Shown here piece by piece: positions 20,370-39,174 of a stretch of DNA of 64,000 bases. Origin of the DNA: Candidatus Tenderia electrophaga (lineage in GTDB: Bacteria > Pseudomonadota > Gammaproteobacteria > Tenderiales > Tenderiaceae); contig CP013099.1 in assembly GCA_001447805.1 (NCBI GenBank), positions 1,240,001 to 1,304,000 of the forward strand. The letters are read 5' to 3'. The notes under the pieces are model-generated. The model worked only from the letters and a program-made list of their open reading frames with translations. It was not told where the DNA came from and did no database searches. The position numbers and the translations under genes are program-made. Within the stretch, counting starts at the first letter, position 1. Every line of letters begins with the position of its first letter.

Positions 20370-22052
20370 TTAGGGGTAAAGCGGCAGTAAAACCTGATTG
20401 TCCGACCTGTCCCGCTTTGCATGATTAGCGCTCGCCTTTTTTAGGCTTTGCCACAATTCATCACCCCGCCATCCGGTTTGTCGCGAGCCGTAGAGCGTTT
20501 GATTGAGCGATTCTATTTCCCCTTGTACGTCTTCATCAAGACGCCGACCGATGTCGCCCAGGCTGGCGGGAGGGGCCGCGGGCCAAAAAGCCGCGCCCCA
20601 TTCCAGCAATGCCCGTTTCGTCCCGTGCGGGTCATTGCGTTCACAGGCCTTCTTGACCGCGCCTAAGCAAAGCTTTGCGCCGGGTGTGGTCGGCCGTCCC
20701 CGTAGCAGCGCTGTCCGGCGTCGGCTGACAACCCAGGCCAGTGAGGTGGTCAACCATGCCGCTGCGAAAAAGAGACTCAGCCACAGATATATGCCCGGCG
20801 TGGCTTGGTCCGTGGTCCCCGCCGGCGCGGCGCGGGTCTCGGCCGTAACCGTGTTGGTGTCGGGCTGGGTGATCGAGGACGTTGCTTGAGCGCCGCCCAC
20901 GCCGGGCTGGACCTGGACGGTGCGCGCCGGCAGTTTGGCCACTTCGCGCTGTTGGCGATTAACGTTCCACCAGGGGATCTCGATGGCGGGCAGGGTGAGT
21001 TCGCCGGGGCGTGTGGGAATGATGGCGATCTTCTCTTGTCGCGTACCGTTGATGCCTTGACTGCCGCGTTTATCGTTGAGACGCGGTTGATCGGGATAGG
21101 TCTTGAAACCGTCGCCTTGCGGCATGGGCAAGGCCGGCAATTGGGCCGCGCTCAAGCCGTCGGCCTTGAGTGTGAGAGTGCGGGTGATCGGTTCGCCGAC
21201 GACAAACTCCGGGGATTGCTGCGACCAGCTCTCGCTGAGGCGCAAATCCTCGGCCGGCAGCCAGGGCTGATTCTGCATGGCCGTCGGGATGGGTTTGATA
21301 TCCAGCTTCACGCGCTTTGAGTTGAGCCGCCGCGTGCTGGTGTTCTGGCCGAAGGGGTCGAAGACACCGGCGCGGCTGTTGACCACTTGCGCGTCGAGCG
21401 TGATGGGGTTGATGGTGATGGCGCCGCTTTGCTGCGGAAACAGCGCGTAATTGCGCTCGATCACTACATAGCGTCGGCCGTTGCGGCGCGTCTCGAAGCT
21501 GGAATCCTCGCCCAGCTGCTGCACCCGTACCTCGCCGCCACTGAATGTCGGTTCCGGCATGGTGGCGCTGTTGAGGTTGACGGCGCGATAGAAGCGGATG
21601 GTGTAGAGGATCTGCGATTGCACATAGGCGCTGGTGGGTTGCGCCTCCACTTCCAGGAACATGTCCATGTTCTCGGCGGCGGCGCCGCTATCACCGGCCG
21701 CGTTGACCGTGATGCTGATCTGTGGGCTGTGATCCGAACCGATCTCGATCGAAGGGATGTTCAACTCGCCGCTGCGCTTGGCCATGACGAACAGGGTCCA
21801 GCGGGTTTGTTGGGTGATTTCGCTGTTGAGGATTTGCATGTTGCTGCTGCGGCTGCGACTCAGGATGTCGAAGTCCTGTTCCAGCGGCGCAAAGTCCGGG
21901 TCTGCGTTGATATTGTCATCCGCCTCGAAGATGATCTTGAAGGATTCGTTAAGCCGCACCGGGTCGCGATCCACCCGGGCGGTGATGTTGGCGGCCATGG
22001 CGGTGACGGTCATCAGGCTCAGACATAAAAAAAGAAATACGCGTTTCACCAT
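20370..22052 (-). CDS. batD: BatD/DUF11-like membrane protein of the Bat operon
   Basis: A 560-residue protein with an N-terminal signal peptide (VKRVFLFLCLSLMTVTAMA), a long periplasmic beta-rich region built of immunoglobulin-like repeats (about 25-410), a Thr/Ala-rich spacer, one membrane helix (about 430-452) and a short cytoplasmic tail. This is the architecture of BatD, the last gene of MoxR/Bat clusters. The GTG three bases after the annotated ATG is an alternative start. The start overlaps the end of the BatB/BatC gene by 7 bases, pointing to translational coupling. Precise function is unknown. Confidence 0.9.
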   Translation of the reverse strand: MVKRVFLFLCLSLMTVTAMAANITARVDRDPVRLNESFKIIFEADDNINADPDFAPLEQDFDILSRSRSSNMQILNSEITQQTRWTLFVMAKRSGELNIPSIEIGSDHSPQISITVNAAGDSGAAAENMDMFLEVEAQPTSAYVQSQILYTIRFYRAVNLNSATMPEPTFSGGEVRVQQLGEDSSFETRRNGRRYVVIERNYALFPQQSGAITINPITLDAQVVNSRAGVFDPFGQNTSTRRLNSKRVKLDIKPIPTAMQNQPWLPAEDLRLSESWSQQSPEFVVGEPITRTLTLKADGLSAAQLPALPMPQGDGFKTYPDQPRLNDKRGSQGINGTRQEKIAIIPTRPGELTLPAIEIPWWNVNRQQREVAKLPARTVQVQPGVGGAQATSSITQPDTNTVTAETRAAPAGTTDQATPGIYLWLSLFFAAAWLTTSLAWVVSRRRTALLRGRPTTPGAKLCLGAVKKACERNDPHGTKRALLEWGAAFWPAAPPASLGDIGRRLDEDVQGEIESLNQTLYGSRQTGWRGDELWQSLKKASANHAKRDRSDNQVLLPLYP

Positions 22053-23866
22053 GGCTCCCGTTCATTGTTGCGCCGCTGGCGCGCCTGTTGTTGATATTGA
22101 TACTGGAACTTGCGCCGCAGCAGACCGCCCGGGTCGTCGGGGATGCGGCGCAGCCACTGTTCGGTGGCGATGTCGGTTTCCGCGGTTTCGCTGTATTCCC
22201 GCGACGGCAGGGGACGTTGTTCTTCGCCTTCCGCTTGTTCACCGTCCTGCTGCCGCCCGAGTTGTTGCTGTTCACCTTCGATCTCATCGGCCTCCTGTTG
22301 TGCCTGTTGTTGCGCCTGTTGCTGTTGCGCCGTCGGATCCTGTGTTGGGCCGGCCGAGTCGGCCTGTTGCTGATCGCCGCGCTGAGCGGGCTGTTGTTCG
22401 GCGGACTGTTGCTCGCCCTGTTGTCCCGGCCGGTCTGATTGTTGTTTCCCCTGACCGTCCTGCTGCGGTTGATCACCTTTTGTTTGATCCGATTGCGACT
22501 GCTTTTGTTGTTGCAGTTGTGCCTTTACCAGATCGCGGTTGTGGCGTGCGTCCTCGTCATCCGGGTCCAGCTTCAAAGCCTGTTCATAGGCCTCAATGGC
22601 TGCTGGATAGTCGCCCAGCCGGGCCAGGGCGTTGCCTTTATTGTAGAGGGCGTCGGCGGTATTGATGCCCTCCAGTGTCTCTACCGCCGCTTCATACTGT
22701 CCGGCCCGGTAACGGGCCGCCGCGCGCCAGTGGGGGGCATTGAACAATCGGGCCGCCGCTTCCGCATTGCCTTGTTTGAGTTGATGCAGGGCTTGTTGAT
22801 TATCATTGCGCCACAGATCGGCCAGTTCGACGGCCTCGGCGTTTTGTGGCAGGGGCAACAGCGCCACCACCGCCAGCAGCGCCAAGTGACCGCGGCGGAA
22901 GGCCAAGGCCGCCAGCAGCAGCACGGGCAACAACAACCACGGCCCGGCCTCACGCCATTGATCACTCTTCAGGCGGCTAAGCTGTGCTTCGGATTTGCGC
23001 AAGCTGTCGACGCCTTCGAGCAGGTGATTGATATCCCCATCACCGGCCGTGATGCGGTGATAACGGCCGCCACCCTGGCGCGCCAGTTGTTGCAGCGCGG
23101 CCGTGTCCAGTTTGGGGACGACGATGGCGCCCTGGCTGTCCTTGAGAAAGCCGCCGTCACGCAGGGCGATGGGGGCCCCTTCCGCCGTGCCCACCGCCAG
23201 CACGGAGAGGCGGTGCTGATGCCCCTTTAATTCAGCCAGAGTGTGTTCCAGGTCCTGGCGATCGATGCCGTCGCTAATCAGCAAAATATCGCCCTCGGGT
23301 ACACCGGCCTGTTGCAACAGCTGCGTCGCCCTGGCCACGGCGGCCGAGGTGTCGCTGCCCTGCAGCGGCATCATATTGCTGTCCAGGGCGTTGACCAGGG
23401 AGATAATGGTGTTGGCATCATCGGTCAGCGGTGACACGGTGAAGGCCTCGGCGGCATAGACGATGAGCGCGGCCTGACCCTCGCGACGTTGTTTGAGGAT
23501 ATCGATCAACTTCAAGCGGGCGCGCGCCAGCCGGCTGGGTTTGATATCGGTGGCGTCCATGGAGCGCGACAGGTCCAAGGCGATCACCAGCGCTGAGGGA
23601 TCACGAAACACCGGTTGCTCGCGCTGTTCACAGGCCGGACCGGCCAGCGCCAGGATGGCCAGGAGTCCGGCCAGGGCGGTGACCGGCAACGGCCAGCGCG
23701 CCGCCCGGGCCGCGCCGCTCTGTAGGATGTAGGGCAGCAGACGGGGCTCGCAGACCGCTTGCCAACGGCCGGCGTTGCCGCGGCGTCGACCCAGCAGCCA
23801 CAACAGCAGGGCCAGCGGCAGCAGCAGCCAGAGCCATTCCGGGCGCAGCAAATGACAACTAGCCAT
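22046..23866 (-). CDS. BatB/BatC fusion: VWA domain plus TPR and Gln-rich tail
   Basis: A 606-residue membrane protein. Two helices near the N-terminus (about 10-26 and 60-78) precede a von Willebrand factor A domain with the MIDAS motif DLSRSMDATD and ISDGID. Further helices lie near 300-345. Next are TPR-like repeats (NKGNALARLGDYPAAIEAYEQALKLDPDDEDARHNRDLVK, about 405-450), then about 100 residues dominated by Gln, Glu and Asp. The C-terminus carries the conserved block EQWLRRIPDDPGGLLRRKF. BatB and BatC are separate genes in Bacteroides; here they are one protein, as is usual in proteobacteria. It overlaps BatA by 8 bases. Confidence 0.9.
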   Translation of the reverse strand: MASCHLLRPEWLWLLLPLALLLWLLGRRRGNAGRWQAVCEPRLLPYILQSGAARAARWPLPVTALAGLLAILALAGPACEQREQPVFRDPSALVIALDLSRSMDATDIKPSRLARARLKLIDILKQRREGQAALIVYAAEAFTVSPLTDDANTIISLVNALDSNMMPLQGSDTSAAVARATQLLQQAGVPEGDILLISDGIDRQDLEHTLAELKGHQHRLSVLAVGTAEGAPIALRDGGFLKDSQGAIVVPKLDTAALQQLARQGGGRYHRITAGDGDINHLLEGVDSLRKSEAQLSRLKSDQWREAGPWLLLPVLLLAALAFRRGHLALLAVVALLPLPQNAEAVELADLWRNDNQQALHQLKQGNAEAAARLFNAPHWRAAARYRAGQYEAAVETLEGINTADALYNKGNALARLGDYPAAIEAYEQALKLDPDDEDARHNRDLVKAQLQQQKQSQSDQTKGDQPQQDGQGKQQSDRPGQQGEQQSAEQQPAQRGDQQQADSAGPTQDPTAQQQQAQQQAQQEADEIEGEQQQLGRQQDGEQAEGEEQRPLPSREYSETAETDIATEQWLRRIPDDPGGLLRRKFQYQYQQQARQRRNNEREPW

Positions 23867-24860
23867 GCCGCCGCCTCACCTCCGGCAGGCTCAGGGCCAG
23901 GATCAGCGCGGTGGCCAATGCCATGGCCGCGCCGAGGGGGTAGACATACAGGGCCTGCAGAGGACGGAACACCTGCGCCTCTTGCTCGCTGGGCTCCAGT
24001 TGATCGATCAGGCCATAAACCTGTTGCAACTCCTCGGTATCGCGGGCGCGAAAATAACGGCCGCCGGTCTTGTCGGCGATGGCGGTCAACAGTCCTTCAT
24101 CCAGGTCGGCCGAGGGATTGACGCGCTGCCGGCCGAACAGGGATTGCACCACCATCTCATCGGCGCCGATGCCGATGGTGTAGATCTTCAGGCCTTTGTC
24201 CGCCGCGAGTTCGGCGGCCTTGAGCGGTGACACCTCGCCGGCGGTGTTGGCGCCGTCGGTGAGCAGGATCATCACCTGGTCCGTGGCGTGTTCATCCCCC
24301 AAGCGTTTCACCATCAGGCCGATGGCGTCGCCGATGGCGGTGGCCTGACCCGCCAGGCCGATGACGGCCTCGTAGAGCAGGGTGCGCACCGTTTGGCGAT
24401 CGAAGGTAAGGGGTGTCTGTAGATAAGCCTGTGCGCCGAACAGGATCAGGCCCACCCGGTCGCCGACGCGGCGCTGGATGAATTCACCGGCGATGGCCTG
24501 GGTCGCCTCCAGGCGGTTGACCACCCGGCCGCTGAGCTGGAAGTCGAGGGTGTCCATACTGCCGGACAGGTCCACCGCCAGCATCAGATCGCGGCCCGTG
24601 GTGGGCAGTTCGATGGGCTCGCCGAGCCATTGCGGCCGCGCCGCCGCCGTCACCAGAAATAGCCAGGCCAGGCTCGCCAGCAACAGCGGCCAGCGCCGTT
24701 GCTTGAAATGCACGGAGCGTTCGCCGATGACCTGAAAGTCTTCAATGAAGGGCACGCGCAGGGCGGCGTCCTGACGTGATTGGGCCGCCGGCAACAGCAG
24801 GCGCAGCAACAAGGGTAAAGGCACGAGTGCAAAGGCCCAGAGCCATTCGAACTGGATCAT
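23859..24860 (-). CDS. batA: BatA-type VWA-domain membrane protein
   Basis: A 333-residue inner-membrane protein. Membrane helices lie at about 5-20, 50-67 and near the C-terminus (about 305-325). The VWA domain between them has an intact MIDAS: AVDLSGSMDTLDF, then a threonine in TPLTF and ILLTDGANTAGEV. Start at 24860 (MIQFEWLW), overlapping the DUF4381 stop as ATGA; a longer frame from 24890 is unlikely. VWA/MoxR pairs are thought to act as metal-dependent adaptors and AAA+ chaperones for maturation of other complexes. Confidence 0.9.
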   Translation of the reverse strand: MIQFEWLWAFALVPLPLLLRLLLPAAQSRQDAALRVPFIEDFQVIGERSVHFKQRRWPLLLASLAWLFLVTAAARPQWLGEPIELPTTGRDLMLAVDLSGSMDTLDFQLSGRVVNRLEATQAIAGEFIQRRVGDRVGLILFGAQAYLQTPLTFDRQTVRTLLYEAVIGLAGQATAIGDAIGLMVKRLGDEHATDQVMILLTDGANTAGEVSPLKAAELAADKGLKIYTIGIGADEMVVQSLFGRQRVNPSADLDEGLLTAIADKTGGRYFRARDTEELQQVYGLIDQLEPSEQEAQVFRPLQALYVYPLGAAMALATALILALSLPEVRRRHG

Positions 24861-25330
24861 GCCGAGCCCCCGGGCAGTTGCTGCAGCCAACGGCGGCAGG
24901 CGTTCAACAAGGCCTGCGGGTTGCCGGTGATGTCTTTTTCATAAGGCGCGTGCAGTAGGGTGGCGGCGGCCGCGTCGTCGAACGGACGCGTCTTGCCGTG
25001 GCGGTTGAGAAAGTCCAGCCAGGCCCGGCCGGTGAGCCCCGCCACCTCTTGGCGCGGATAGCGGCTGATGGCGACACGGCGCAGTAGCACCGAGCACGCC
25101 CCCGCCAGTTGCTGAGTGTTCGCATGCTCGGCAAAGGCCTGTTCGATGCGTTGCAGTTCGTCTAGGGCCTGTCTGCGCAGGCGTTGGCGTTGCCGGGCGT
25201 GGCGCACGGCCCAGAGGATCATGCCGATCACGATCAATAATACCAGCAGCAGCCACCAGCCCGCTGCCGGCGGCCACCAGGGTACGCCCGCGGGCAGGTG
25301 GATGTCGCGCAGCGGTAACTCGCCGTTCAT
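24857..25330 (-). CDS. DUF4381 membrane protein
   Basis: A 157-residue protein with one membrane helix (about 25-43, WWLLLVLLIVIGMILWAV) after a short periplasmic N-terminus with the sequence LPLRDIHLPAGVPWWPPA, which is typical of DUF4381. The cytoplasmic remainder is helical and Arg-rich. It lies between the DUF58 and BatA genes with 4-base overlaps at both ends. The start (25330) was taken at the ATG that overlaps the DUF58 stop. Function unknown; it is a standard member of proteobacterial MoxR-Bat operons. Confidence 0.86.
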   Translation of the reverse strand: MNGELPLRDIHLPAGVPWWPPAAGWWLLLVLLIVIGMILWAVRHARQRQRLRRQALDELQRIEQAFAEHANTQQLAGACSVLLRRVAISRYPRQEVAGLTGRAWLDFLNRHGKTRPFDDAAAATLLHAPYEKDITGNPQALLNACRRWLQQLPGGSA

Positions 25331-26262
25331 GGCCGCCCGCCGTATTGCAGCGTGGCCACGAGATCGGCATCGGTGGCGCAGCTGAGATAATGGATGCCGG
25401 GAAAACGGCAAAGTTGTTTGAGCATAGCGCTATGCTCACGGAAGTGCTCGCGGTGTTGGCGCTGAGTCGTTTTGTCGTCGCCGCTGAAGCGGCTGCTGCG
25501 TTCGCCCCAGGCGACACGATAGATGCCGTGCCGCGGCAGTTCGGCCTCCAAGGGGTCATAGATATGAAACAACACCACATCGTTGTGGCGCGCCAGCTGC
25601 GCCAGGTGGGATTCGGCCTGGGCGCCCAGCTTGCGGAAATCGCTCAATAGAAAGATCAGGCTGCCGGGTTTGGCGACGCGGCGCAGCCGCGCCAGGGCCT
25701 TGTCGGCGTCGGGTTCAGTTTCGTTGTATCGGCTTTGCCACCGGGACGTCTGACTCAGTTGGCGCAGCAGATTCAACACAGCCGACTTGCCGCGCTTGGG
25801 ACGCAGTTCGTGATGCACATCGGCTGTGAACACCAAGCCGCCGAGGCGGTCGCCCTGCCGGTTGGCACTCCAGGCGATGAGGGCGGCGGCGCGGGCGGCG
25901 ATCACCGATTTGAAGGCGCCGCGGGTGGCGAAGAACATGGTGGGGCGCATATCGACCCAGGCCAGTACGGCGCGTTCGCGCTCTTCGCGAAACAGTTTGG
26001 TATGCAGGGTGCCGCTGCGCGCGGTGACGCGCCAGTCCACATTGCGCACGTCGTCGCCGGGCTGGTAGAGGCGTGCCTCGTCGAACTCCATGCCGCGGCC
26101 CTTGAAGCGGGATAGATAGCCGCCGCTTTGTTGTGCCTTGATACGCAGGGTCTTGAGTGACAGCTTCTCGCCGGCGCCGCGCAGGGCGATCAGGGCCTCG
26201 CTGGACACCCGCACCAGGTTGTCGCCGGCGTCAGTGGGTTCAGGCGCGTGGAACAACGTCAT
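25327..26262 (-). CDS. DUF58 domain protein (MoxR-associated)
   Basis: A 311-residue cytoplasmic protein. The DUF58 core is RMKAQQ-like region followed by GMEFDEARLYQPGDDVRNVDW, then RSGTLHTKLFREERERAVLAWVD, which continues into a VWA-like fold. The start is the ATG at 26262, overlapping the MoxR stop (ATGA); the same frame continues upstream as a meaningless reading of the MoxR gene. Second gene of the operon, so presumably a client adaptor of the MoxR ATPase. Confidence 0.9.
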   Translation of the reverse strand: MTLFHAPEPTDAGDNLVRVSSEALIALRGAGEKLSLKTLRIKAQQSGGYLSRFKGRGMEFDEARLYQPGDDVRNVDWRVTARSGTLHTKLFREERERAVLAWVDMRPTMFFATRGAFKSVIAARAAALIAWSANRQGDRLGGLVFTADVHHELRPKRGKSAVLNLLRQLSQTSRWQSRYNETEPDADKALARLRRVAKPGSLIFLLSDFRKLGAQAESHLAQLARHNDVVLFHIYDPLEAELPRHGIYRVAWGERSSRFSGDDKTTQRQHREHFREHSAMLKQLCRFPGIHYLSCATDADLVATLQYGGRP

Positions 26263-27224
26263 GGTACGGCAACGGTGCGGATCAAGGCGTCGATGAATGT
26301 GTCGCTGGTGACGCCGTCGGCCTCGGCCTCGTAACTGAGGATGATGCGATGGCGCAGCACATCGTGGGCCAGCGCCTGGATATCTTCCGGCGCCACATAG
26401 TCGCGTCCCTGCAGCCAGGCAAGGGCGCGGGCGCAGCGGTCCAGGGCGATGGTGGCGCGCGGACTGGCGCCGAATTCGATCCATTGACTCAGCTCGCTGC
26501 CGTAGCCTTCCGGTTTGCGCGTCGCCAATACCAGTTGCAGCAGGTACTCCTCCAAGGGGTCGGCCATGTGGATCTGCAGCACCTCCTGGCGCGCGCCGAA
26601 CAGGGCCTGCTGGGTGATCATGGTGGCGGGGGCGTGGTGCGCGTGTTGCGCCTCGCCGCGTACCAGGTGCAGGATGTCGCGCTCGGCGGCGGCGTCGGGA
26701 TAGTCGACGGTCACATGCAGGAGAAAGCGATCCAGCTGCGCCTCGGGCAGCGGGTAGGTCCCTTCCTGCTCGATGGGGTTTTGGGTCGCCATCACCAGGA
26801 ACAGCTCGGGGAGTTTGTGGGTCACAGCGCCGACGGTGATCTGGCGTTCGGCCATGGCCTCCAGCAGGGCGGACTGCACCTTGGCCGGGGCGCGATTGAT
26901 CTCGTCGGCCAGCACCATGTTGTGAAACAGCGGGCCGGGCTGAAATTCGAAGCGGGCCTCCTGGGGCCGGAACACCTCGGTGCCGGTGAGGTCGGCGGGC
27001 AGCAGGTCGGGGGTGAACTGGATGCGTTGGAAATCGCCCTCGATGGCCTCGCTCAGGGTCTTGATGGCGCGGGTCTTGGCCAGCCCCGGCGCGCCTTCCA
27101 CCAGCAGGTGGCCGTCGCACAGCAGGGCCACCAAGAGGCGCTCCACCAGGGCCTCTTGGCCGATGATCTGGCGGCTGATCTGTTGTTTGAGTTGTTGGAT
27201 TTCGTTTTGATACGGCATGGGCAT
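26259..27224 (-). CDS. MoxR-family AAA+ ATPase
   Basis: A 321-residue AAA+ ATPase. Walker A is seen in modified form as HLLVEGAPGLAKTRAIKTL (GxPGLAKT), Walker B as NMVLADEINRAPAKVQSALLEAM, and sensor/arginine parts as VMATQNPIEQEGTYPLPEAQLDRFLLH. The C-terminal lid carries SPRATIALDRCARALAWLQGRDYV. This is the first gene of the Bat operon, with about 260 bp of upstream sequence before the divergent glgP gene. MoxR proteins act with VWA partners in assembling or activating protein complexes, including metal insertion and envelope stress tolerance. Confidence 0.94.
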   Translation of the reverse strand: MPMPYQNEIQQLKQQISRQIIGQEALVERLLVALLCDGHLLVEGAPGLAKTRAIKTLSEAIEGDFQRIQFTPDLLPADLTGTEVFRPQEARFEFQPGPLFHNMVLADEINRAPAKVQSALLEAMAERQITVGAVTHKLPELFLVMATQNPIEQEGTYPLPEAQLDRFLLHVTVDYPDAAAERDILHLVRGEAQHAHHAPATMITQQALFGARQEVLQIHMADPLEEYLLQLVLATRKPEGYGSELSQWIEFGASPRATIALDRCARALAWLQGRDYVAPEDIQALAHDVLRHRIILSYEAEADGVTSDTFIDALIRTVAVP

Positions 27225-29989: not shown

Positions 29990-30149
29990 AGTCCGTAAAT
30001 GAACGCAAATTAAGGCTCCCCTCTTCAATTAAAGAGGGGCTGGGGGAGATTTAAAGCTAAGCGTTTCAAATCTTTAAATCCCCCTCAGTCCCCCTTTAAG
30101 AAAGGGGGAGGCTGGGACGTGTATTTAATGTGTGTTCATTGGCCGGACT
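29990..30149. repeat. Palindromic intergenic element between convergent glgP and asn genes
   Basis: About 160 bp form one large imperfect palindrome. The outer ends are AGTCCG (29990-29995) and CGGACT (30144-30149), followed inward by related ATGAAC/GTTCAT segments. The inner arms each contain a small hairpin: CTCCCCTC...GAGGGGCTGGGGGAG on the left and CTCCCCCTTT...-type repeats on the right (seen reversed as CCCCCTTTAAGAAAGGGGG). It could act as a two-way transcription terminator for the convergent genes and also looks like a dispersed MITE-type repeat. No second copy is present in the window. Confidence 0.65.
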
Positions 30150-30157
30150 GATATCGA

Positions 30158-32170
30158 TCAGGCCGCCCAGCCCAGTTCCTCGGCACGCGTACGCGCCATC
30201 TCGGGTACGTCGGTGGCGACGAAGTGGCTGTGCAACACCTGGATGCCGATCATATGATTGATGACGGCGTCGAGTTGGATCTTGGTGGAGGCGCTGGTGT
30301 CTTGCGCTTCGTGCAGATCAAACACCGCTTTCACGCCGTCCTTGTCCAACACGCCGGCGGCGTCGATGGCCTGGTCCGACAGATATTCATCGGCCAGTGC
30401 CTTCATCGCGTCCCATTTTTTGGGATCGGTGTGGGCCGGCGGCGCCATAAAGGCGAATTTTTCACGCTCATACAAGGTTTTGGGCAGGATGCCCTTCATC
30501 GCCTCACGCAGCACGTATTTCTCGGTGCGGCCCTTGATGCGCATGGTCGGCGGCAGCTTGGTGGCCGCTTCAGCCAGGTGGTGATCGAGGAAGGGCGGGC
30601 GTGCCTCCATGGAGTTGGCCATGTCGACGCGGTCGCCGCCCCAGGTGAGGATCTGGCCTTCGAGCATGGTCTTGATCCAGACGTACTGGGCCTTGTCCAG
30701 CGGGTGGCGATCCTTGAGCATGTCGCCGTCCAGGGCCTCGGCGATGGCCTTGCCCGGCTGGTAGCCTTCGGTTTGCTTGCGCAATTCGGGGTGCAGCAGG
30801 CCGGGCACGTGCTCGGCCGCGGCCAGCCACGGCTGCAGGCAGCTGGGCGTGAAGCCGACCAACGCATCCAGGGCCGGATCATGAAGTTCGTTTTCCGCCA
30901 GCATAGCACCCTGGAACAGCTTGTTGCTCTCATCCAGCAGTGCCTGCCACTCCTTGCGCTCCTCCGGCGGCAGGGTGTCCAGGCCGTGCAGGAACATGTC
31001 GCGGCGGAAGGCGGGATAGCCGGCGAACAATTCGTCCGAGCCCTCACCGGTCACCACCACCTTGTAGCCCGCCTGGTTGACGTGGCGACTCATCAACAAC
31101 TTGGCCACGCCCAGGGTGTTGTAGATGGTGCGTTCGGTGTGCCACAGGGTCTCGACGAAGTTGTCGTAGAGGTGGTCGGCCTTGAGGCGCATGATGTCCT
31201 GATCGGCGCCCACCGATTCGGCCATCTCGGTGGCGATGACGCTTTCGTCGTAGTCGGCGTCGTCGAAGCCGATGGTAAAGGCCTTCACCGGTGACTGCTG
31301 ACTGGCGGCGGCCAGGCCCAGGGTGGCGCAGGAGTCGATGCCGCCGGAGAGGTAGCAGGCCACCGGCACGTCGGCCTCCAGGCGCAATTGCACCGCCTCG
31401 AGCAGCTTTTCGCGAATGGCCTCGATATAGAATTCCTCCGGCTGCGACTCGTCGCGCTCGCCCATGAGCGGGAAGTCCATGTCCCAATAGCGCTCATCCT
31501 TGATCTCGAACTTGCCGTTGTTGCGCTCGATGATCACCACGTGACCGGGCTTGACCTGATGCACGCCTTCGAAGGCGGTAGTGCCGGGCACGATGGTTTG
31601 CATCAACTGGTGATAGACGCCTTGGGCACTGAACTGGCGCGGCACCTCGGGATGGGCGAATAACACCTTCAGTTCCGAGCCAAACACCAGCGTCCCATTG
31701 TGCTCGGTCCAGTAGAGCGGCTTGACGCCGAAGCGGTCGCGCACCAGCATCAGGCGGTCGTGTTCGCGGTCATAGAGGGCGAAGGCGTATTCGCCGCGGC
31801 AGGTCTTGAGCATTTCCTCGAGGCCGAAGCGCTCGTAGAGGTGCAGGACCAGCTCCGAGTCGCTCTTGGTTTTGAAGCGCGCGCCGCGCGAGGTGAGATC
31901 GGCACGGATGCGTTTGTAATCGTAGAGTTCGCCGTTCTGGGTCAGCATCAGATTGCCGTCGTTGGAGAAGAACGGCTGGCGGCCGCGGTCCTCGTTCAGG
32001 TCGATGATGGAGAGCCGGGCGTGGCTGAAACCGATGCCGCGGTCGTTCATGGTCTTGTAGCCGAAGCCGTCCGGTCCGCGATGGTGTTGGATGGCGGCCA
32101 TGTTGACCAGGGTCTGTGGGTCTACCGGCCGGGCCGGGTCTGCATGTAGGTAGCCTGCAATTCCGCACAT
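30158..32170 (-). CDS. asnB: Glutamine-hydrolysing asparagine synthetase-like amidotransferase
   Basis: A 670-residue enzyme with an N-terminal class II glutamine amidotransferase domain (Met1 followed by the nucleophile Cys2 in MCGIAGYLH; HHRGPDGFG; NGELYDYKRIR) and a C-terminal synthetase domain with the ATP-binding SGGIDSCATLGLA, TGEGSDELFAGYPAFR and WGGDRVDMANSMEARPPFLDHHL. The true start is the ATG at 32170 because Cys2 must follow it. Longer than E. coli AsnB (554) and closer in size to Bacillus AsnB/AsnO. Last gene of a four-gene operon with carbamoyl-chemistry enzymes, so aspartate may not be the real acceptor; related enzymes amidate other acids. Confidence 0.9.
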   Translation of the reverse strand: MCGIAGYLHADPARPVDPQTLVNMAAIQHHRGPDGFGYKTMNDRGIGFSHARLSIIDLNEDRGRQPFFSNDGNLMLTQNGELYDYKRIRADLTSRGARFKTKSDSELVLHLYERFGLEEMLKTCRGEYAFALYDREHDRLMLVRDRFGVKPLYWTEHNGTLVFGSELKVLFAHPEVPRQFSAQGVYHQLMQTIVPGTTAFEGVHQVKPGHVVIIERNNGKFEIKDERYWDMDFPLMGERDESQPEEFYIEAIREKLLEAVQLRLEADVPVACYLSGGIDSCATLGLAAASQQSPVKAFTIGFDDADYDESVIATEMAESVGADQDIMRLKADHLYDNFVETLWHTERTIYNTLGVAKLLMSRHVNQAGYKVVVTGEGSDELFAGYPAFRRDMFLHGLDTLPPEERKEWQALLDESNKLFQGAMLAENELHDPALDALVGFTPSCLQPWLAAAEHVPGLLHPELRKQTEGYQPGKAIAEALDGDMLKDRHPLDKAQYVWIKTMLEGQILTWGGDRVDMANSMEARPPFLDHHLAEAATKLPPTMRIKGRTEKYVLREAMKGILPKTLYEREKFAFMAPPAHTDPKKWDAMKALADEYLSDQAIDAAGVLDKDGVKAVFDLHEAQDTSASTKIQLDAVINHMIGIQVLHSHFVATDVPEMARTRAEELGWAA

Positions 32171-32204
32171 AATATTGTAGTTCCTCTGGAGTCTTGGTGA
32201 TTGA

Positions 32205-33287
32205 TTAAGATAATAGTTCGTCGGGTGTGTCGATGACATGCTGGACGCGCTGCACCACGCTGGTGAGCAGGGCCATGCGGATGTAAACGGCGCCGCGGGC
32301 CTGGGCGAAGTACCAGTTGTGCTCGGTGTTGTCCAGGTCGGTCGACAGCTCCTTGCCGCGCGCCAGCGGGTGCATGATGATGGAGCCGGGCTTGAGCGGT
32401 GACTTGGCGTTGAGCTTCAGGTCTTCACCCATTCGTTCGAAAGTATCGCCCACCCAGGCAATGGAGTTGATGTAGACCACGTCCAGCTGCGGCAGTTCTT
32501 TGTTCAGGGATTGGCTGACACGGATGTTGAGTCCCTCTTGCTGCAGTTCTTCCAATTGCCCTTGATCGTACGGATGGTCATCCTCGCAGATCACCACCAC
32601 CTCTTCGAAGGCGTGGGCATAGAGCGACAGCATGATCAATAGGGAGCGCACCGTGCGCATCTTGTTGGGCACGCCGATGATGCCGATGCGCGCCTTGTCG
32701 CCGTCGGCCACGTGCTCGGCCAGCAATTGAGGGCGCCATTTGAAGATGGCGAACATGTCGGTCAGCGCCTGGGTGGGGTGCTCATCGACGCCGTTACCGG
32801 CATTGATGATGGGGATGCGCAGTCCGTCCAACATCTCATAGACGGCGTCTTCGTTGCGGTCGCGCAGCACCACCACATCACCGTAGTGATTGAACATCTC
32901 GGCCACGTCGCCGAGCGATTCACCCTTGGCGATGCCGGTGGTGGCGGGGTCCGTGATGCTCATTACGTCGCCGCCGAGGCGATGCCAGGCGCTTTCGAAG
33001 GATAGCCGCGTGCGCGTGCTGGGTTCGTAAAAGGCATTGATCAGGATCTTGCCCTTCAGCGGTGGGAACAGGTTGGGCGAGGTCTCGTATAGGGCCGCCA
33101 GGCGACACACCTGGGCGATCCTGTCACGCGTGAATTGGCGCGCCGAGACGATGGGCATGCCGGCCAGGTCGACCAGGTATCGCGGATCTTCCTCCACCTG
33201 ATCGAGCAGGCGCTGCGGCCGCTCGATGCCGTCGCGCCATTTGGCGGGGATGACCGGGTTCCTGAGTAGGGGGTGAAGCGGTTTCAC
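32205..33287 (-). CDS. Aspartate/ornithine-type carbamoyltransferase, probably not a standard ATCase
   Basis: A 360-residue transcarbamylase. The carbamoyl-phosphate site is intact: PSTRTRLSFESA, the swinging-loop lysine in AKGESLGD, and HPTQALTDMF. A homologue of E. coli ATCase Arg167 is present (NKMRTVRSL). But the aspartate-binding loop, which in E. coli reads TRVQKER and supplies Arg229 and Gln231, is here YINSIAWVGDTFERMGED. The later HPLARGKELSTDLDNTEHNWYFAQA matches the ATCase HPLPR region. An N-terminal extension of about 45 residues is also unusual. Annotation tools would call this pyrB, but the acceptor may be another amine. Third gene of the operon; 35 bp before asnB. Confidence 0.82.
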   Translation of the reverse strand: MKPLHPLLRNPVIPAKWRDGIERPQRLLDQVEEDPRYLVDLAGMPIVSARQFTRDRIAQVCRLAALYETSPNLFPPLKGKILINAFYEPSTRTRLSFESAWHRLGGDVMSITDPATTGIAKGESLGDVAEMFNHYGDVVVLRDRNEDAVYEMLDGLRIPIINAGNGVDEHPTQALTDMFAIFKWRPQLLAEHVADGDKARIGIIGVPNKMRTVRSLLIMLSLYAHAFEEVVVICEDDHPYDQGQLEELQQEGLNIRVSQSLNKELPQLDVVYINSIAWVGDTFERMGEDLKLNAKSPLKPGSIIMHPLARGKELSTDLDNTEHNWYFAQARGAVYIRMALLTSVVQRVQHVIDTPDELLS

Positions 33288-33378
33288 CAGACGTCTCCTT
33301 TTGTTCCAGCAATGAATCTACAGGTGAGTGATGACAACGCCGTCGGGCGTGTCGTCGTCAGTAATTCGCGAGTCTTGC

Positions 33379-34110
33379 TCATTGGCTTCTGGCCTTTACA
33401 TCCGCCAGTTCCGCCAGCGCCTCTTGCGTGGAAATGACGCGGGCATAGCGGTCCTTCATAGTGGTGATGGTGGCCTGTTGCAGCTCGGGTGTCACGGTTG
33501 CGCAACCGTCTTCTATCAGTGTCACATAAAAGCCCAAATCGCAGGCGTCGCGGATGGCGGTGGAGACACATTCGTTGCTATACACACCGACCATGTACAG
33601 GCCGGTGATCTCCATATTGCGCAGGATGTACTCCACATTGGTGGCATTGAATACGCCGCTGGCAGTCTTGTTGATAATGATCTCGTCGCCCTGGGGCGCC
33701 ACTTGGGGCAGGAATTCGGCCTCTTTCGAGCCGGGCGGCGCGTGCAGGTTGAGGCGCTTATGGCCGGGGCCGCGGTCGCGACCGTCCTGGGTCAATGACT
33801 GGATGCGGGTGTGAATCACCTCCAGTCCTTTGCGCCTGAAGCCGTCCTGCAGTTTGCGTACGTTGGGTAATACGGTCTCTTCCAGCCGATTGAAATAATA
33901 TTCCTGCGCCTCTACCGGCACCCCCGATTTCTGCACGTCGGCGAACACGCCGTAACCGGGTGCGGCGTCGAGGAATTGCAGGTCGATGGTGAGCAGGGCG
34001 GTGTGGTATTGCTCCAGCGACTTGTGTACCGCCGGGGCGTCGGTGATCGATTCGCGATAGGTCTCGCGTAAGGGGTCGACATTGACATATTCTTCGTACT
34101 TTATCGTCAT
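33379..34110 (-). CDS. Isochorismatase-family amidohydrolase
   Basis: A 243-residue cysteine hydrolase. The catalytic set of the family can be read as Asp in ALLTIDLQFLD, Lys in IIINKTASGVFNAT and Cys in VGVYSNECVSTAIRDACDLGF. Members include ureidoacrylate amidohydrolase (RutB), N-carbamoylsarcosine amidase, biuret hydrolase and nicotinamidase. The neighbours, a carbamoylase and a transcarbamylase, favour a ureido or N-carbamoyl substrate. The N-terminal ~35 residues precede the domain. Start overlaps the carbamoylase stop by 4 bases; 91 bp separate it from the transcarbamylase gene. Confidence 0.85.
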   Translation of the reverse strand: MTIKYEEYVNVDPLRETYRESITDAPAVHKSLEQYHTALLTIDLQFLDAAPGYGVFADVQKSGVPVEAQEYYFNRLEETVLPNVRKLQDGFRRKGLEVIHTRIQSLTQDGRDRGPGHKRLNLHAPPGSKEAEFLPQVAPQGDEIIINKTASGVFNATNVEYILRNMEITGLYMVGVYSNECVSTAIRDACDLGFYVTLIEDGCATVTPELQQATITTMKDRYARVISTQEALAELADVKARSQ

Positions 34111-35348
34111 TTTTCGCTAGCCAGCTTGTGGAGGGTATTCAGTAATATATTAGCTCCGTTTTCGATGTCCTCCCAGGCGGTCCATTCGGCCGGTGAATGG
34201 CTGCGACCGTCCTTGCTGGGGACGAAGATCAAACCGGCGCGCGTCATGCGTGACATGATCTGGGTGTCATGCGCGGCGCCGCTGGGCATTTGCAGCATGG
34301 ACAGGCCGTCGGCCTGGGCCGCCTCGCTGATCAACTGCATGACGCCGGGGTCGCATTTCACCGGGGCGATATCGCTCAGTACTTCGAATTCGAACATCAG
34401 GTCGCGGCGTCGGGCGATGGCGGAGATGGCACGGCGAAAGGCGCTGGCCAGCTGTTCCAGTTTTTCGTGATTGGTTTCGCGCACGTCGAGGGAGAATTCC
34501 ACCATGCCGGGCACCACGTTGGCCGCGCCCGGCGACAACTCGACCCGGCCGACGGTGGCGACGCTGCTGGGGCTGCCGTGTTCCTCCAGGATGCGCGGGA
34601 TCTCGCCGGAGAATTCCGCCAGGCCCTGAAACGCGTCCTGGCGCATGTCCATGGGCGTGGAGCCGGCGTGGGCGGCCATGCCGGCGAGCCTGACGTTCCA
34701 TTTGAACAGGCCGGCGATGGCATCCACCACGCCGATCTTGATATGGCGGCGATCCAGCACCGGCCCCTGTTCGATATGCAACTCGATAAAGGCGTGAATG
34801 CTCTCCGCCGGCCGCGCGGCGTTCAGGGCGTCCATGGCGTTCATGCCCCAGTGCGCCATGGCGTCACTGATGGAGACGCCCTCCAAATCACGTGCGTGAT
34901 GAATGCTCTCAGGTGTCAGGCGGCCGCATATGGCGCTGGAGCCGAAGATGCCGCCGAAGCGTCCCTCCTCATCGGAAAAGGCCACCGCTTCCAGCGGCCG
35001 GGCAAGATCGATCTCTTGTTCCTTGAGACAACGTAGGCACTCCAGGCCGGCGACCACGCCCAGGGCGCCGTCCAGCTGTCCGCCGCCGGGCACCGAGTCG
35101 ATATGGGAGCCTGTCATGATGCTGGCCTTGCCTTCGCGCCAATTGAGCCGGGCGTGAACGTTGGCCGCACCGTCTATATAGTGCTCCAGCCCGGCGCTCT
35201 CGATACGTTGACGCAACCAGTCCCTGGCCTGCATGTCGGCGGCGCTGAAGGCCATGCGGTAAATACCTTGGTCTTCGGCTTTGCCGATTTCCGCAAGTGA
35301 GGCGAGATCGTCGCGCAGACGTGTGGCATTGACTTTGAGGTTACTCAT
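34107..35348 (-). CDS. Zn-dependent M20-family hydantoinase/carbamoylase (allantoate amidohydrolase-like)
   Basis: A 413-residue amidohydrolase of the AllC/HyuC/beta-ureidopropionase group. Metal-site motifs are GSHIDSVPGGGQLDGALGVVAGLE, AFSDEEGRFGGIFGSSA and ELHIEQGPVLD; the dimer-domain histidine lies in GMAAHAGSTPMDMRQDA, and DTQIMSRM with GRSHSPAEWT closes the active site. Such enzymes release CO2 and ammonia from N-carbamoyl-amino acids or allantoate. The start is taken at the ATG at 35348 (MSNLKVNATRLRDDL). First gene of the operon. The exact substrate cannot be told from sequence. Confidence 0.88.
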   Translation of the reverse strand: MSNLKVNATRLRDDLASLAEIGKAEDQGIYRMAFSAADMQARDWLRQRIESAGLEHYIDGAANVHARLNWREGKASIMTGSHIDSVPGGGQLDGALGVVAGLECLRCLKEQEIDLARPLEAVAFSDEEGRFGGIFGSSAICGRLTPESIHHARDLEGVSISDAMAHWGMNAMDALNAARPAESIHAFIELHIEQGPVLDRRHIKIGVVDAIAGLFKWNVRLAGMAAHAGSTPMDMRQDAFQGLAEFSGEIPRILEEHGSPSSVATVGRVELSPGAANVVPGMVEFSLDVRETNHEKLEQLASAFRRAISAIARRRDLMFEFEVLSDIAPVKCDPGVMQLISEAAQADGLSMLQMPSGAAHDTQIMSRMTRAGLIFVPSKDGRSHSPAEWTAWEDIENGANILLNTLHKLASEK

Positions 35349-36309: not shown

Positions 36310-37362
36310 ATGAGAGTGATGGCTGTTTTAATGCTGCTGGTCTTCGCTGCCGCGCCGGCTATGGCCGCTGAAGACCTTATGGACAGGGCGAAACAAGTAT
36401 TCGAACCCATTCCGACCACGCCGCCCAAGGATAAAATCATATCGCCGCAATCGGTGGAGCTGGGCAAGATGCTCTATTTCGATCCGCGCCTGTCCAGCAG
36501 CTGGCTGGTCAGTTGCAACACCTGCCATAACCTTGGCACCGCCGGGGTGGATTTGCAGGAGACATCGGTTGGCCACGGCTGGAAGCGCGGCCCGCGCAAC
36601 GCACCGACGGTGCTCAACTCCGTCTACAACATTGCCCAGTTCTGGGACGGCCGGGCATCGGATCTGAAGGAACAAGCCAAAGGCCCGGTGCAGGCGGCGG
36701 TGGAAATGAACAACACGCCGGATAGGGTCGTCAAGACGCTCAAGAGTATGCCGGAATACGTCAAGCGCTTTGGTGAGGTCTTCCCGGATCAAAAAGATCC
36801 GGTCACCTTCGAAAATATGGCCCGCGTCATTGCCGACTACGAAGTTACCTTGCTGACACCCAATGCGCCCATCGACAAATTTATCAAGGGCGATGACAAC
36901 GCCTTGTCGAAGGCGGAAAAGGAAGGTTTGCGCTTGTTCATGGATAAGGGCTGCGCTACTTGTCACAGCGGCATCAATATCGGTGGCGGTATGTATCAGC
37001 CCTTCGGTGTCGTGGAAAAGCCGGGCTCCGACATTCTGCCGCGCGATGATAAGGGGCGTTTTGCCGTGACCGAAACGCCCAGCGACGAGTATGTATTCAA
37101 AGTACCGTCATTGCGCAATGTAGCCCTGACGCCACCCTATTTCCATTCAGGCAAGGTCTGGAGCCTGAGGCAGGCGGTGGGAGTGATGGGGACGGCCCAA
37201 TTGGGTGTCGACCTTACGGACAGTGAAGCGAGCAAGATCGTTACCTTTTTGCATGCCCTGACGGGTGATCAGCCCGATGTGGATTACCCGATTCTGCCGC
37301 CTATCACAGATAGCACACCGAAGCCGGAGCTGGCGGTAACCCAGCAGGGGGGTGGGCACTAG
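36310..37362 (+). CDS. ccpA: Diheme cytochrome c peroxidase
   Basis: A 350-residue periplasmic protein with a clear signal peptide (cleavage after AMAA). Two c-type heme motifs are visible, CNTCH near residue 73 and CATCH near 218, each in its own domain. This is the bacterial CcpA/MauG family, which reduces hydrogen peroxide with electrons from small cytochromes. Length and spacing are those of peroxidases rather than of MauG proteins. GGAG ribosome site 6 bases upstream. Likely induced when oxygen is low through the FNR-like site upstream, and ends in a good terminator. Confidence 0.93.
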   Translation: MRVMAVLMLLVFAAAPAMAAEDLMDRAKQVFEPIPTTPPKDKIISPQSVELGKMLYFDPRLSSSWLVSCNTCHNLGTAGVDLQETSVGHGWKRGPRNAPTVLNSVYNIAQFWDGRASDLKEQAKGPVQAAVEMNNTPDRVVKTLKSMPEYVKRFGEVFPDQKDPVTFENMARVIADYEVTLLTPNAPIDKFIKGDDNALSKAEKEGLRLFMDKGCATCHSGINIGGGMYQPFGVVEKPGSDILPRDDKGRFAVTETPSDEYVFKVPSLRNVALTPPYFHSGKVWSLRQAVGVMGTAQLGVDLTDSEASKIVTFLHALTGDQPDVDYPILPPITDSTPKPELAVTQQGGGH

Positions 37363-37387
37363 CCACCGCCGGGTCAAGGTGAATGCG

Positions 37388-37424
37388 TCCAAGGCAAAGT
37401 CTGACTTTGCCTTGGATTTTTTTT
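37388..37424 (+). terminator. Rho-independent terminator of the peroxidase gene
   Basis: Perfect 12-bp stem (37388-37399 with 37405-37416), 5-base loop, then eight T residues. Confidence 0.92.
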
Positions 37425-37661
37425 ATGTAAGGACGACGCTTGGGTTGACGTCTTTAGTGGCTTGATGGTTGGGCCGCAATGACTTCATACTTGGCAGTGT
37501 GTACATGCCCGGCAGTAACCGTTCCAGCGGATACGCCGCCGTTCTTGACAGTGTATGGCCCCCCGTCTACTTTTTGAAGGTGTCTTGGTTAAAGTCTCGA
37601 ATAACAATGTGGTCTTTTGGCGGCCGTCGTCCGCAGCTTGATCCAGGGAGGGGGCAATGAA

Positions 37662-38678
37662 ATGAAAAGAATCACCCGGCGTGAGTTTCTCGGCATGTCT
37701 CTAAAGACCGGTGCAGCGACAATGTTTGCAGGGATGTTCGCGCCATCGGCAACCAGCCTGATGGGCTTGGGCGGAGTGGCGCAAGCCACCACCAAAACCA
37801 TTTCACCGTTTACCTTTGCCGTAATCACCGATTCACACCTTTACGATATTCCCGACCACAAGTTCGACGCCATTCTGGAAAAGGCCGTGGCCGATGTGAA
37901 CGGCCTCAGGCCACAGCCTGACTTCGTGCTCTATTCAGGTGACCTGGCACAGTTCGGCAAGGAGGCCGAATTTGTCAAAGGAAAGCGCATTCTCGACAAG
38001 TTGAAGGTGCCTTATAAGATCATCCCCGGCGAGCATGACTGGTACCTGGATATGGGGAAGGCCTGGCGCAAGATGTTCGGTGATGAGTATTGGTCCTTCG
38101 ATCATAAAGGCACACACATCATCGGTATGAACTCTATTCTCGTCGATGATTTCTGGACGCTGCGTGAACTGACCCCGGCCGAGCGCATGGGTTACATGGC
38201 GGAGCTGGAGTGCCATCAATGCGGCCTCTGGGGCGTGCATGATAAACAGCTCGATTGGCTGGAAAAGGATATCAAAAACCTGAGTCCGGATACGCCGGTG
38301 ATTATCATGACGCATTCGCCGCTGTGGGATTACTACCCGCGCTGGAACTTTCAAACCATCGACGCGCCGGAGATCCGTCTGCTGCTGCGCAAATTCGAAA
38401 AGGTAATGGCGATTCACGGGCATATCCACCAGGTGGTTTACAACTCCATCGGCAATATCAGGTCGGCCGGGCTGCTGTCCACCTCCTGGCCCTGGCCTTA
38501 TCCGCCGGTGGAGCTGCCTTATCCTCATATCAAGATGAACCGTGTCGATCCAGGCGATTTCGAAGACGGTTTGGGTACCCACGCCATCGATCTTGCCAAA
38601 AATTTTGACGGCGTCTTGAACTACCGCGCGTTTTCCGACTTGTTGCCGGACAACGTCAAACGCGGTGTCAAACTCTGA
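37662..38678 (+). CDS. Tat-exported metallophosphoesterase
   Basis: A 338-residue calcineurin-like phosphoesterase. The N-terminus KRITRREFLGM is a twin-arginine signal, followed by a hydrophobic stretch and a likely cleavage site near VAQA. Metal-binding motifs: VITDSHLYD, YSGDLAQFG, GEHDW (in place of the common GNHD), MTHSPL and IHGHIH. Start chosen at the ATG at 37662, which follows GGAGGGGGC. It overlaps the next gene's upstream region with a 16-base gap. The substrate is unknown; folded export implies metal loading in the cytoplasm. Confidence 0.88.
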   Translation: MKRITRREFLGMSLKTGAATMFAGMFAPSATSLMGLGGVAQATTKTISPFTFAVITDSHLYDIPDHKFDAILEKAVADVNGLRPQPDFVLYSGDLAQFGKEAEFVKGKRILDKLKVPYKIIPGEHDWYLDMGKAWRKMFGDEYWSFDHKGTHIIGMNSILVDDFWTLRELTPAERMGYMAELECHQCGLWGVHDKQLDWLEKDIKNLSPDTPVIIMTHSPLWDYYPRWNFQTIDAPEIRLLLRKFEKVMAIHGHIHQVVYNSIGNIRSAGLLSTSWPWPYPPVELPYPHIKMNRVDPGDFEDGLGTHAIDLAKNFDGVLNYRAFSDLLPDNVKRGVKL

Positions 38679-38694
38679 TTCGGGGGACGGGACG

Positions 38695-39174
38695 ATGAAG
38701 ACGCACCAGCATCACGCCAACGCCATTTATATTCTGCTTGTGTTGCTTAGTATGACGACGCTTCAGGCCAAGGAGCCGCTTAGCAGCGCGGCAGCGGAAG
38801 ATCAAAGAAATATGCTGATCGATTTCGTCGCGCGCGGCGATGCCCTTTGGCACAGTGAAGACTTGGGTACCAATGGTTTGGCCTGCGGTAATTGCCATCC
38901 GGACGCGAGCGCGACCAACCCCCATACCTGGCCCAAATATCAGACCAACCTGGGCAAGGTGGGAACCCTGCGCGAGATGATCAACTGGTGCATTGCGGTG
39001 CCCATGCTCGGCAAACCCTTGGCGCTGGACAGCGACGACATGATTGCCATGGAGGCTTATGCCACTTATATGCATCGCGGTGTCGCTATCGCGCCGGCCA
39101 AGGATGAGCAGCACGGCGGGATTCCCGTCATCAGTGGGCCGGGATATCCCACCGCCGTCGGCGGCAATCGTTAG
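38695..39174 (+). CDS. Small exported c-type cytochrome
   Basis: A 159-residue protein with an N-terminal membrane/signal segment (about 10-26, cleavage probably after LQA) and a single heme motif, LACGNCHPDAS. A later conserved block, YQTNLGKVGTLREMINWCIAVPMLGKPLALDSDDMIAMEAYATYM, is the sort found in SoxA-like and thiosulfate/sulfite-associated cytochromes, and a methionine-containing segment might supply the sixth heme ligand. It lies just after the phosphoesterase gene; the pair is probably co-transcribed and the proteins meet in the periplasm. Confidence 0.85.
   Translation: MKTHQHHANAIYILLVLLSMTTLQAKEPLSSAAAEDQRNMLIDFVARGDALWHSEDLGTNGLACGNCHPDASATNPHTWPKYQTNLGKVGTLREMINWCIAVPMLGKPLALDSDDMIAMEAYATYMHRGVAIAPAKDEQHGGIPVISGPGYPTAVGGNR

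Follow-up and report, generated by a model that had tools for sequence, protein, structure and literature searches.

A conserved transcarbamylase-amidotransferase operon in Candidatus Tenderia electrophaga as a candidate pathway for carbamoyl-glutamine amide

Four intact genes in series form a compact operon on the minus strand of a 64,000-nucleotide stretch of the Candidatus Tenderia electrophaga genome (the window, G000:C1:1240001-1304000, in a host genome of 3.76 Mb in two contigs). They encode an M20-family hydrolase (M20), an isochorismatase-type amidase (ISO), a transcarbamylase (TCB) and a glutamine-dependent amidotransferase (ASN), and the grouping is one conserved unit, not a chance association. 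Judged by the protein sequences, the operon quite probably specifies an N-carbamoyl amino-acid amide pathway of some kind. With somewhat less confidence we favor the synthesis and turnover of carbamoyl-glutamine amide (CGA), the product itself being a prediction. CGA is an osmolyte known since 1991. The operon comprises:

34107-35348, minus strand: M20, M20-family N-carbamoyl-L-amino-acid hydrolase, 413 aa, matching NF006771
33379-34110, minus strand: ISO, isochorismatase-type cysteine amidase, 243 aa, matching PF00857
33288-33378, minus strand: 91-bp gap between ISO and TCB, without a symporter; in most relatives the slot of an SSS-family Na+/solute symporter
32205-33287, minus strand: TCB, transcarbamylase of a distinct family, 360 aa, matching OTCace_N and OTCace
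30158-32170, minus strand: ASN, glutamine-dependent AsnB-family amidotransferase, 670 aa, matching GATase_7 and Asn_synthase

An earlier reading made from the DNA letters alone (the sequence-only reading) had listed M20, ISO, TCB and ASN in this order on the minus strand with a 4-base overlap of M20 and ISO, and our gene calls and family searches agree with it; the shared bases are an ATGA. TCB starts with GTG behind AAAGGAG and is separated from ASN by 34 bp. Translated from 32170, ASN opens with MCG, the usual start of an AsnB-type glutaminase, so the longer open reading frame start at 32239 is probably unused.

TCB retains the carbamoyl-phosphate site, with STRT (90-93), K121, R142, H170 and Q173 corresponding to STRT, K84, R105, H134 and Q137 of PyrB. 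In Escherichia coli aspartate transcarbamylase (ATCase), R167 binds the alpha-carboxylate and R229-x-Q231 holds the aspartate side chain. The equivalent of R167 is retained in TCB as R211, whereas S275 and A277 stand where PyrB has R229 and Q231; in the alignment, the rows from TCB operons read IN[S/A]I and those of true PyrB proteins R-x-Q. Because R229 and Q231 are lost while R167 and the carbamoyl-phosphate residues are kept, TCB is expected to accept an alpha-amino acid whose side chain is not acidic, and since the arginine for the alpha-carboxylate is retained, carbamoylation should precede amidation. TCB thus resembles PyrB in fold family, carbamoyl-phosphate site and R167 equivalent, but differs from it in the replaced pair, in an N-terminal extension of about 40 residues and in its own tree branch, separate from both PyrB and ArgF. 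Against the ATCase model TIGR00670 it scores 182 bits, below the cut-off of 237.

The window genome has three transcarbamylase genes, namely TCB and a further two with the scores of ordinary family members, one being of PyrB type. At least three were found in each of the nine other carrier genomes examined. Separate PyrB and ArgF were present in all 10 genomes, including that of the window, so that TCB is a third paralogue. The sequence-only reading had held that TCB is not a pyrimidine enzyme, and these genes and the changed substrate residues bear it out. Its missing specificity loop, however, was an overstatement: the 240s region is present and a few residues shorter, and it is the substrate-binding residues within it that are replaced. 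Two side observations concern the TCB family. TCB-like proteins at L152/L171 and L153/L172 (37-40%) have STRT changed to VNQT or VNRT and no longer have the operon neighbours; L152 and L153 were left out of the TCB set because of these losses, and the proteins may have put the transcarbamylase fold to a different use. In the nearest Tenderia metagenome-assembled genome (MAG), codon 22 of the TCB gene is an in-frame stop (L041:10064-10066), which may be a sequencing error, a sign of a later start or a mark of a broken gene.

ASN carries complete glutaminase and ATP sites (MCG, NGELYD and KSDSE for the glutaminase, and the SGGIDS P-loop). It forms a clade of its own, apart from E. coli AsnB, from the AsnO that makes N-acetylglutaminylglutamine amide (NAGGN) and from exosortase-linked (XrtA) enzymes. 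The TTIR segment of E. coli AsnB, with T322 and R325, which we take to be the aspartate-binding residues, is missing from ASN, where a two-residue gap is found; AsnO and the XrtA enzymes lack it as well, so this absence is weak evidence by itself. ASN passes the asn_synth_AEB model (426 bits over 267) and scores 303.6 bits against the NAGGN amidotransferase model TIGR03104, far under its cut-off of 570.1. In four picocyanobacterial genomes without the operon, no AsnB-type enzyme was found at the threshold used, indicating that ASN is not needed for asparagine there. The nearest ASN relative outside the operon (39%) lies on a Methylobacterium nodulans plasmid (L206:37-3438), followed by an FAD monooxygenase and an acyl-CoA dehydrogenase, and this locus looks like a different amidating pathway.

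M20, the first of the two hydrolases, reaches 539 bits with NF006771, above the cut-off of 399, and its closest solved structure is the N-carbamoyl-L-amino acid hydrolase 3n5f (4e-81), with which its metal ligands match. H82, D93, E127/E128, H191 and H384 are conserved, as are N277 and R290, which putatively bind a carboxylate. The second-best model is ErtE, an N-carbamyl-L-glutamate amidohydrolase; M20 shares the family and the conserved metal ligands with ErtE and the L-carbamoylases, but its 398 bits are below the ErtE cut-off of 520 and the gene context differs. ISO matches the Pfam Isochorismatase family PF00857 (5.7e-32), has the residues D43-K148-C181 and is 68-80% identical among gammaproteobacterial operons. 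Its nearest solved structures are cysteine hydrolases, biuret hydrolase and N-carbamoylsarcosine amidohydrolase. With the last two it shares the isochorismatase family and the Asp-Lys-Cys residues, but it scores 73.7 bits against the BiuH model NF050097, below the cut-off of 370, and its gene context is different. In picocyanobacterial clusters a DUF1028 protein replaces ISO (for example at L056:14422-15075), a finding that suggests that these proteins of unknown function act as amidases.

Carbamoylating and carboxylate-amidating enzymes together point to an N-carbamoyl amino-acid amide as the product. In the pathway that we propose, TCB would use carbamoyl phosphate to carbamoylate L-glutamine at its alpha-amino group, giving N-carbamoyl-L-glutamine, and ASN would use ATP and a second glutamine to convert the alpha-carboxylate to a carboxamide, giving CGA, a neutral molecule with both charges masked. 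When the solute is not needed, ISO (or DUF1028 in picocyanobacteria) would strip the 1-carboxamide, and M20 would split N-carbamoyl-glutamine to glutamine, CO2 and NH3. Since the L-carbamoylases of the M20 family need a free carboxylate, ISO followed by M20 would undo the capping in reverse order. Leaked solute would be recovered by a Na+ symporter, unlinked in the window genome, together with its small membrane partner. The sequence-only reading had offered the making of a carbamoylated or amidated small molecule as one of two options, the one that our analysis supports; it made no connection to CGA and did not notice the symporter.

The operon was found well beyond Tenderia. A strong TCB match was present in 24 of 369 sampled gammaproteobacterial genomes, about 22 of them clear orthologues from many families, and more than 20 loci keep the order M20-ISO-symporter-TCB-ASN as far as the contig permits, with the symporter lacking in a few. 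Marine Synechococcus and Cyanobium have symporter-TCB-ASN-M20-DUF1028 (DUF1028 is shifted in some Cyanobium), and the Prochlorococcus cluster is TCB-ASN-M20-DUF1028, with no symporter at the locus. The Ectothiorhodospira family carries TCB in 41 of 47 genomes, including all 38 near-complete ones. Outside Gammaproteobacteria and Cyanobacteria the operon is rare: one more case was found among about 400 phylum genomes (47%), with TCB, ASN, symporter and M20 together, and a SAR324 genome has a TCB relative (51%) with an amidase nearby and no ASN (L086:10001-15800). No TCB orthologue was found in plasmid and phage collections, where the listed matches were all PyrB-like proteins, at most about 36% identical. 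The closest named relative is a Candidatus Tenderia MAG, whose TCB is 94% identical.

This conservation agrees with the sequence-only reading in treating the genes as one functional unit, since gene order is kept across many families. It had also named the findings that would make the operon a chance grouping, a sole pyrB and freely varying neighbours; instead, pyrB and argF are present as separate genes and conservation of the gene neighbourhood is strong. Most of the named carriers come from marine, haloalkaline or soda-lake habitats; this pattern is no more than suggestive, as the list favors close sequences and the habitats are partly read from strain names. A scan of contigs with TCB peptides failed to pick up the Ectothiorhodospira TCB (62-66% identical), so the list is biased to close sequences and its counts are not prevalences. 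Picocyanobacterial-type clusters also occur in L062, titled a Trichodesmium MAG, and L083, a gammaproteobacterial MAG, and are probably contaminating contigs.

The link to CGA comes from Ectothiorhodospira marismortui, from which CGA was isolated according to the passage in PMC1224877 citing Galinski and Oren 1991. Presence of the operon in the CGA producer was set as a test of the CGA assignment, and M20-ISO-TCB-ASN was found in a genome (G377, locus L166) that fits E. marismortui in assembly features, GC and gene content. G377 has 2.6 Mb in about 40 contigs, pufL and pufM, and 68.7% GC in the operon region; E. marismortui DSM 4180 has 2,624,954 bp in 35 contigs and 68.2% GC, with most other species at 62-64% (PMC8877833, Table 1). 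The pufL and pufM genes were found in two TCB-carrying genomes of one genus. Sister genomes of G377 in turn fit E. shaposhnikovii (G428, 3.8 Mb in 150 contigs versus 3,788,226 bp in 154), strain BSL-9 (G430, 3.6 Mb in one contig versus 3,550,080 bp in one; PMC8877833), and E. vacuolata and E. marina (G429 and G426). At L166 and in a second phototroph (L160), sucrose synthase and fructokinase flank the operon; sucrose is a compatible solute. The two modifications expected from TCB and ASN are precisely those found in CGA, which is known as a compound only. Our literature search, with subscription journals largely outside it, returned no paper on such a gene cluster or assigning genes or enzymes to CGA.

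A known osmolyte system offers a parallel. In NAGGN synthesis, Ngg carries out the N-acylation and forms the peptide bond, after which the AsnB-type AsnO adds the amide; an M42 peptidase is linked, and in Pseudomonas aeruginosa the NAGGN operon is under a MarR repressor (PMC8070244). Like that system, the TCB operon would make a neutral glutamine-derived osmolyte by amino capping and then AsnB-family amidation, with linked hydrolases; a MarR regulator adjoins the operon at L166 and lies near it at four further loci. The cap is placed by an acetyltransferase/ligase in the NAGGN system but by a transcarbamylase here, the hydrolases are different, and the symporter belongs to the TCB unit. Neither ngg nor the M42 peptidase was found in the window operon or as a conserved neighbour in the homologous loci. 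The operon would accordingly be an analog of the NAGGN system and not a member of it, with its amidotransferase far below the NAGGN cut-off and ngg absent.

The symporter is of the SSF family, a distant relative of PutP and PanF. The window genome encodes an orthologue (76% identity) away from the operon, at G000:C1:1572068-1573486. A small membrane protein with no Pfam match precedes M20 in the symporter-bearing gammaproteobacterial operons (L042, L043, L154-L158, L161-L165, L167-L170 and L173-L181) and is missing from the operons without the symporter:

L214:6525-7037, minus strand: small membrane protein

The small protein is directly upstream of the unlinked symporter in the window genome and in the Ectothiorhodospira genomes tested, and weak relatives of it precede the symporter in Cyanobium and Synechococcus. 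Since it accompanies the symporter even when unlinked, the pair behaves as one module and the small protein is probably a symporter partner. In Tenderia a CHASE histidine kinase adjoins the pair.

Other explanations were weighed against CGA synthesis. The same logic could apply to a different neutral amino acid, such as asparagine, glycine or alanine, with the N-carbamoyl amide serving as an osmolyte, a nitrogen store or a building block; the TCB residues say only that the acceptor keeps its alpha-carboxylate and has no acidic side chain. We consider this unlikely, as CGA is the sole such compound that we found described as a solute and the genome fitting its producer has the operon. A housekeeping role, with TCB serving as aspartate transcarbamylase and ASN as asparagine synthetase beside unrelated hydrolases, is what the automatic models say, with asn_synth_AEB passed and PyrB closest to TCB. 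It is very improbable given the strict linkage, the score of TCB below the ATCase cut-off and the missing TTIR segment of ASN; the pyrimidine and asparagine roles were rejected on the separate PyrB in 10 of 10 genomes, the lost binding residues (R229/Q231) and the absence of an AsnB-type enzyme from the four operon-free picocyanobacteria.

Scavenging is quite unlikely. The symporter would import an external ureide or carbamoyl amide for breakdown by ISO and M20, with TCB running in reverse to yield carbamoyl phosphate, and the linkage of two hydrolases with a Na+ symporter speaks for it. However, an ATP-dependent amide former has no place in a breakdown pathway, M20 already takes off the carbamoyl group, carbamate kinase is absent from the operon, and the symporter is absent at the Prochlorococcus loci and from some gammaproteobacterial operons. 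Sites for nitrogen control are not conserved either, with NtcA-like sites in a few cyanobacterial loci and sigma-54-like sites only sporadic. The catabolic option of the sequence-only reading is disfavored for similar reasons, since ASN consumes ATP and Prochlorococcus keeps TCB-ASN-M20-DUF1028 without the symporter.

Several points weigh against the assignment to CGA. The pathway chemistry and the acceptor are read from sequence, and the acceptor, predicted from the replaced TCB residues, could be a neutral amino acid other than glutamine. The producer genome was linked through its features and not its name. All Ectothiorhodospira carry TCB, yet CGA is documented in few strains. TCB is present in only 54 of 300 Cyanobiaceae genomes and in two of seven genomes of the window's genus, several of them incomplete. 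A preference for nitrogen-free osmolytes has been described for high-light Prochlorococcus (PMC10654061), and a solute with four nitrogens would be costly and surprising in such strains, some of which carry the cluster. As a speculation, the cost would be less of a problem if CGA served as a nitrogen reserve.

A further feature lies next to the operon:

30014-30113, minus strand: long imperfect hairpin 3' of ASN (RNA fold -51.3 kcal/mol, z -4.9)

The hairpin is a possible operon end or repeat element; a simple terminator scan did not call it, and Rfam searches of the hairpin and of the operon gave no match. Elsewhere in the window, genes for a MauG-type di-haem cytochrome c peroxidase, a metallophosphoesterase and a SoxA/TsdA-type cytochrome c stand in series on the plus strand (36310-39174), and MoxR ATPase, DUF58-like, von Willebrand and BatD-like genes, recognized by eye as a Bat-type cluster, stand in series on the minus strand (20370-27224).

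In the wider proposal, to which we give about even chances, the unit supplies the missing CGA genes, and CGA is a nitrogen-rich solute or dynamic nitrogen reserve that has been overlooked in ocean picocyanobacteria, where marine Synechococcus, Cyanobium and a subset of Prochlorococcus have the gene set, and in chemolithoautotrophs such as Candidatus Tenderia. If true, this would provide a genetic handle on CGA, an osmolyte for which we found no assigned genes in the literature, and would define a family of transcarbamylases with an acceptor other than aspartate. It would also correct the automatic annotation, which labels these proteins of abundant marine picocyanobacteria as enzymes of pyrimidine and asparagine synthesis, and it would predict a nitrogen-rich ocean compound, with four nitrogens per molecule, that metabolomics could target at a known mass.

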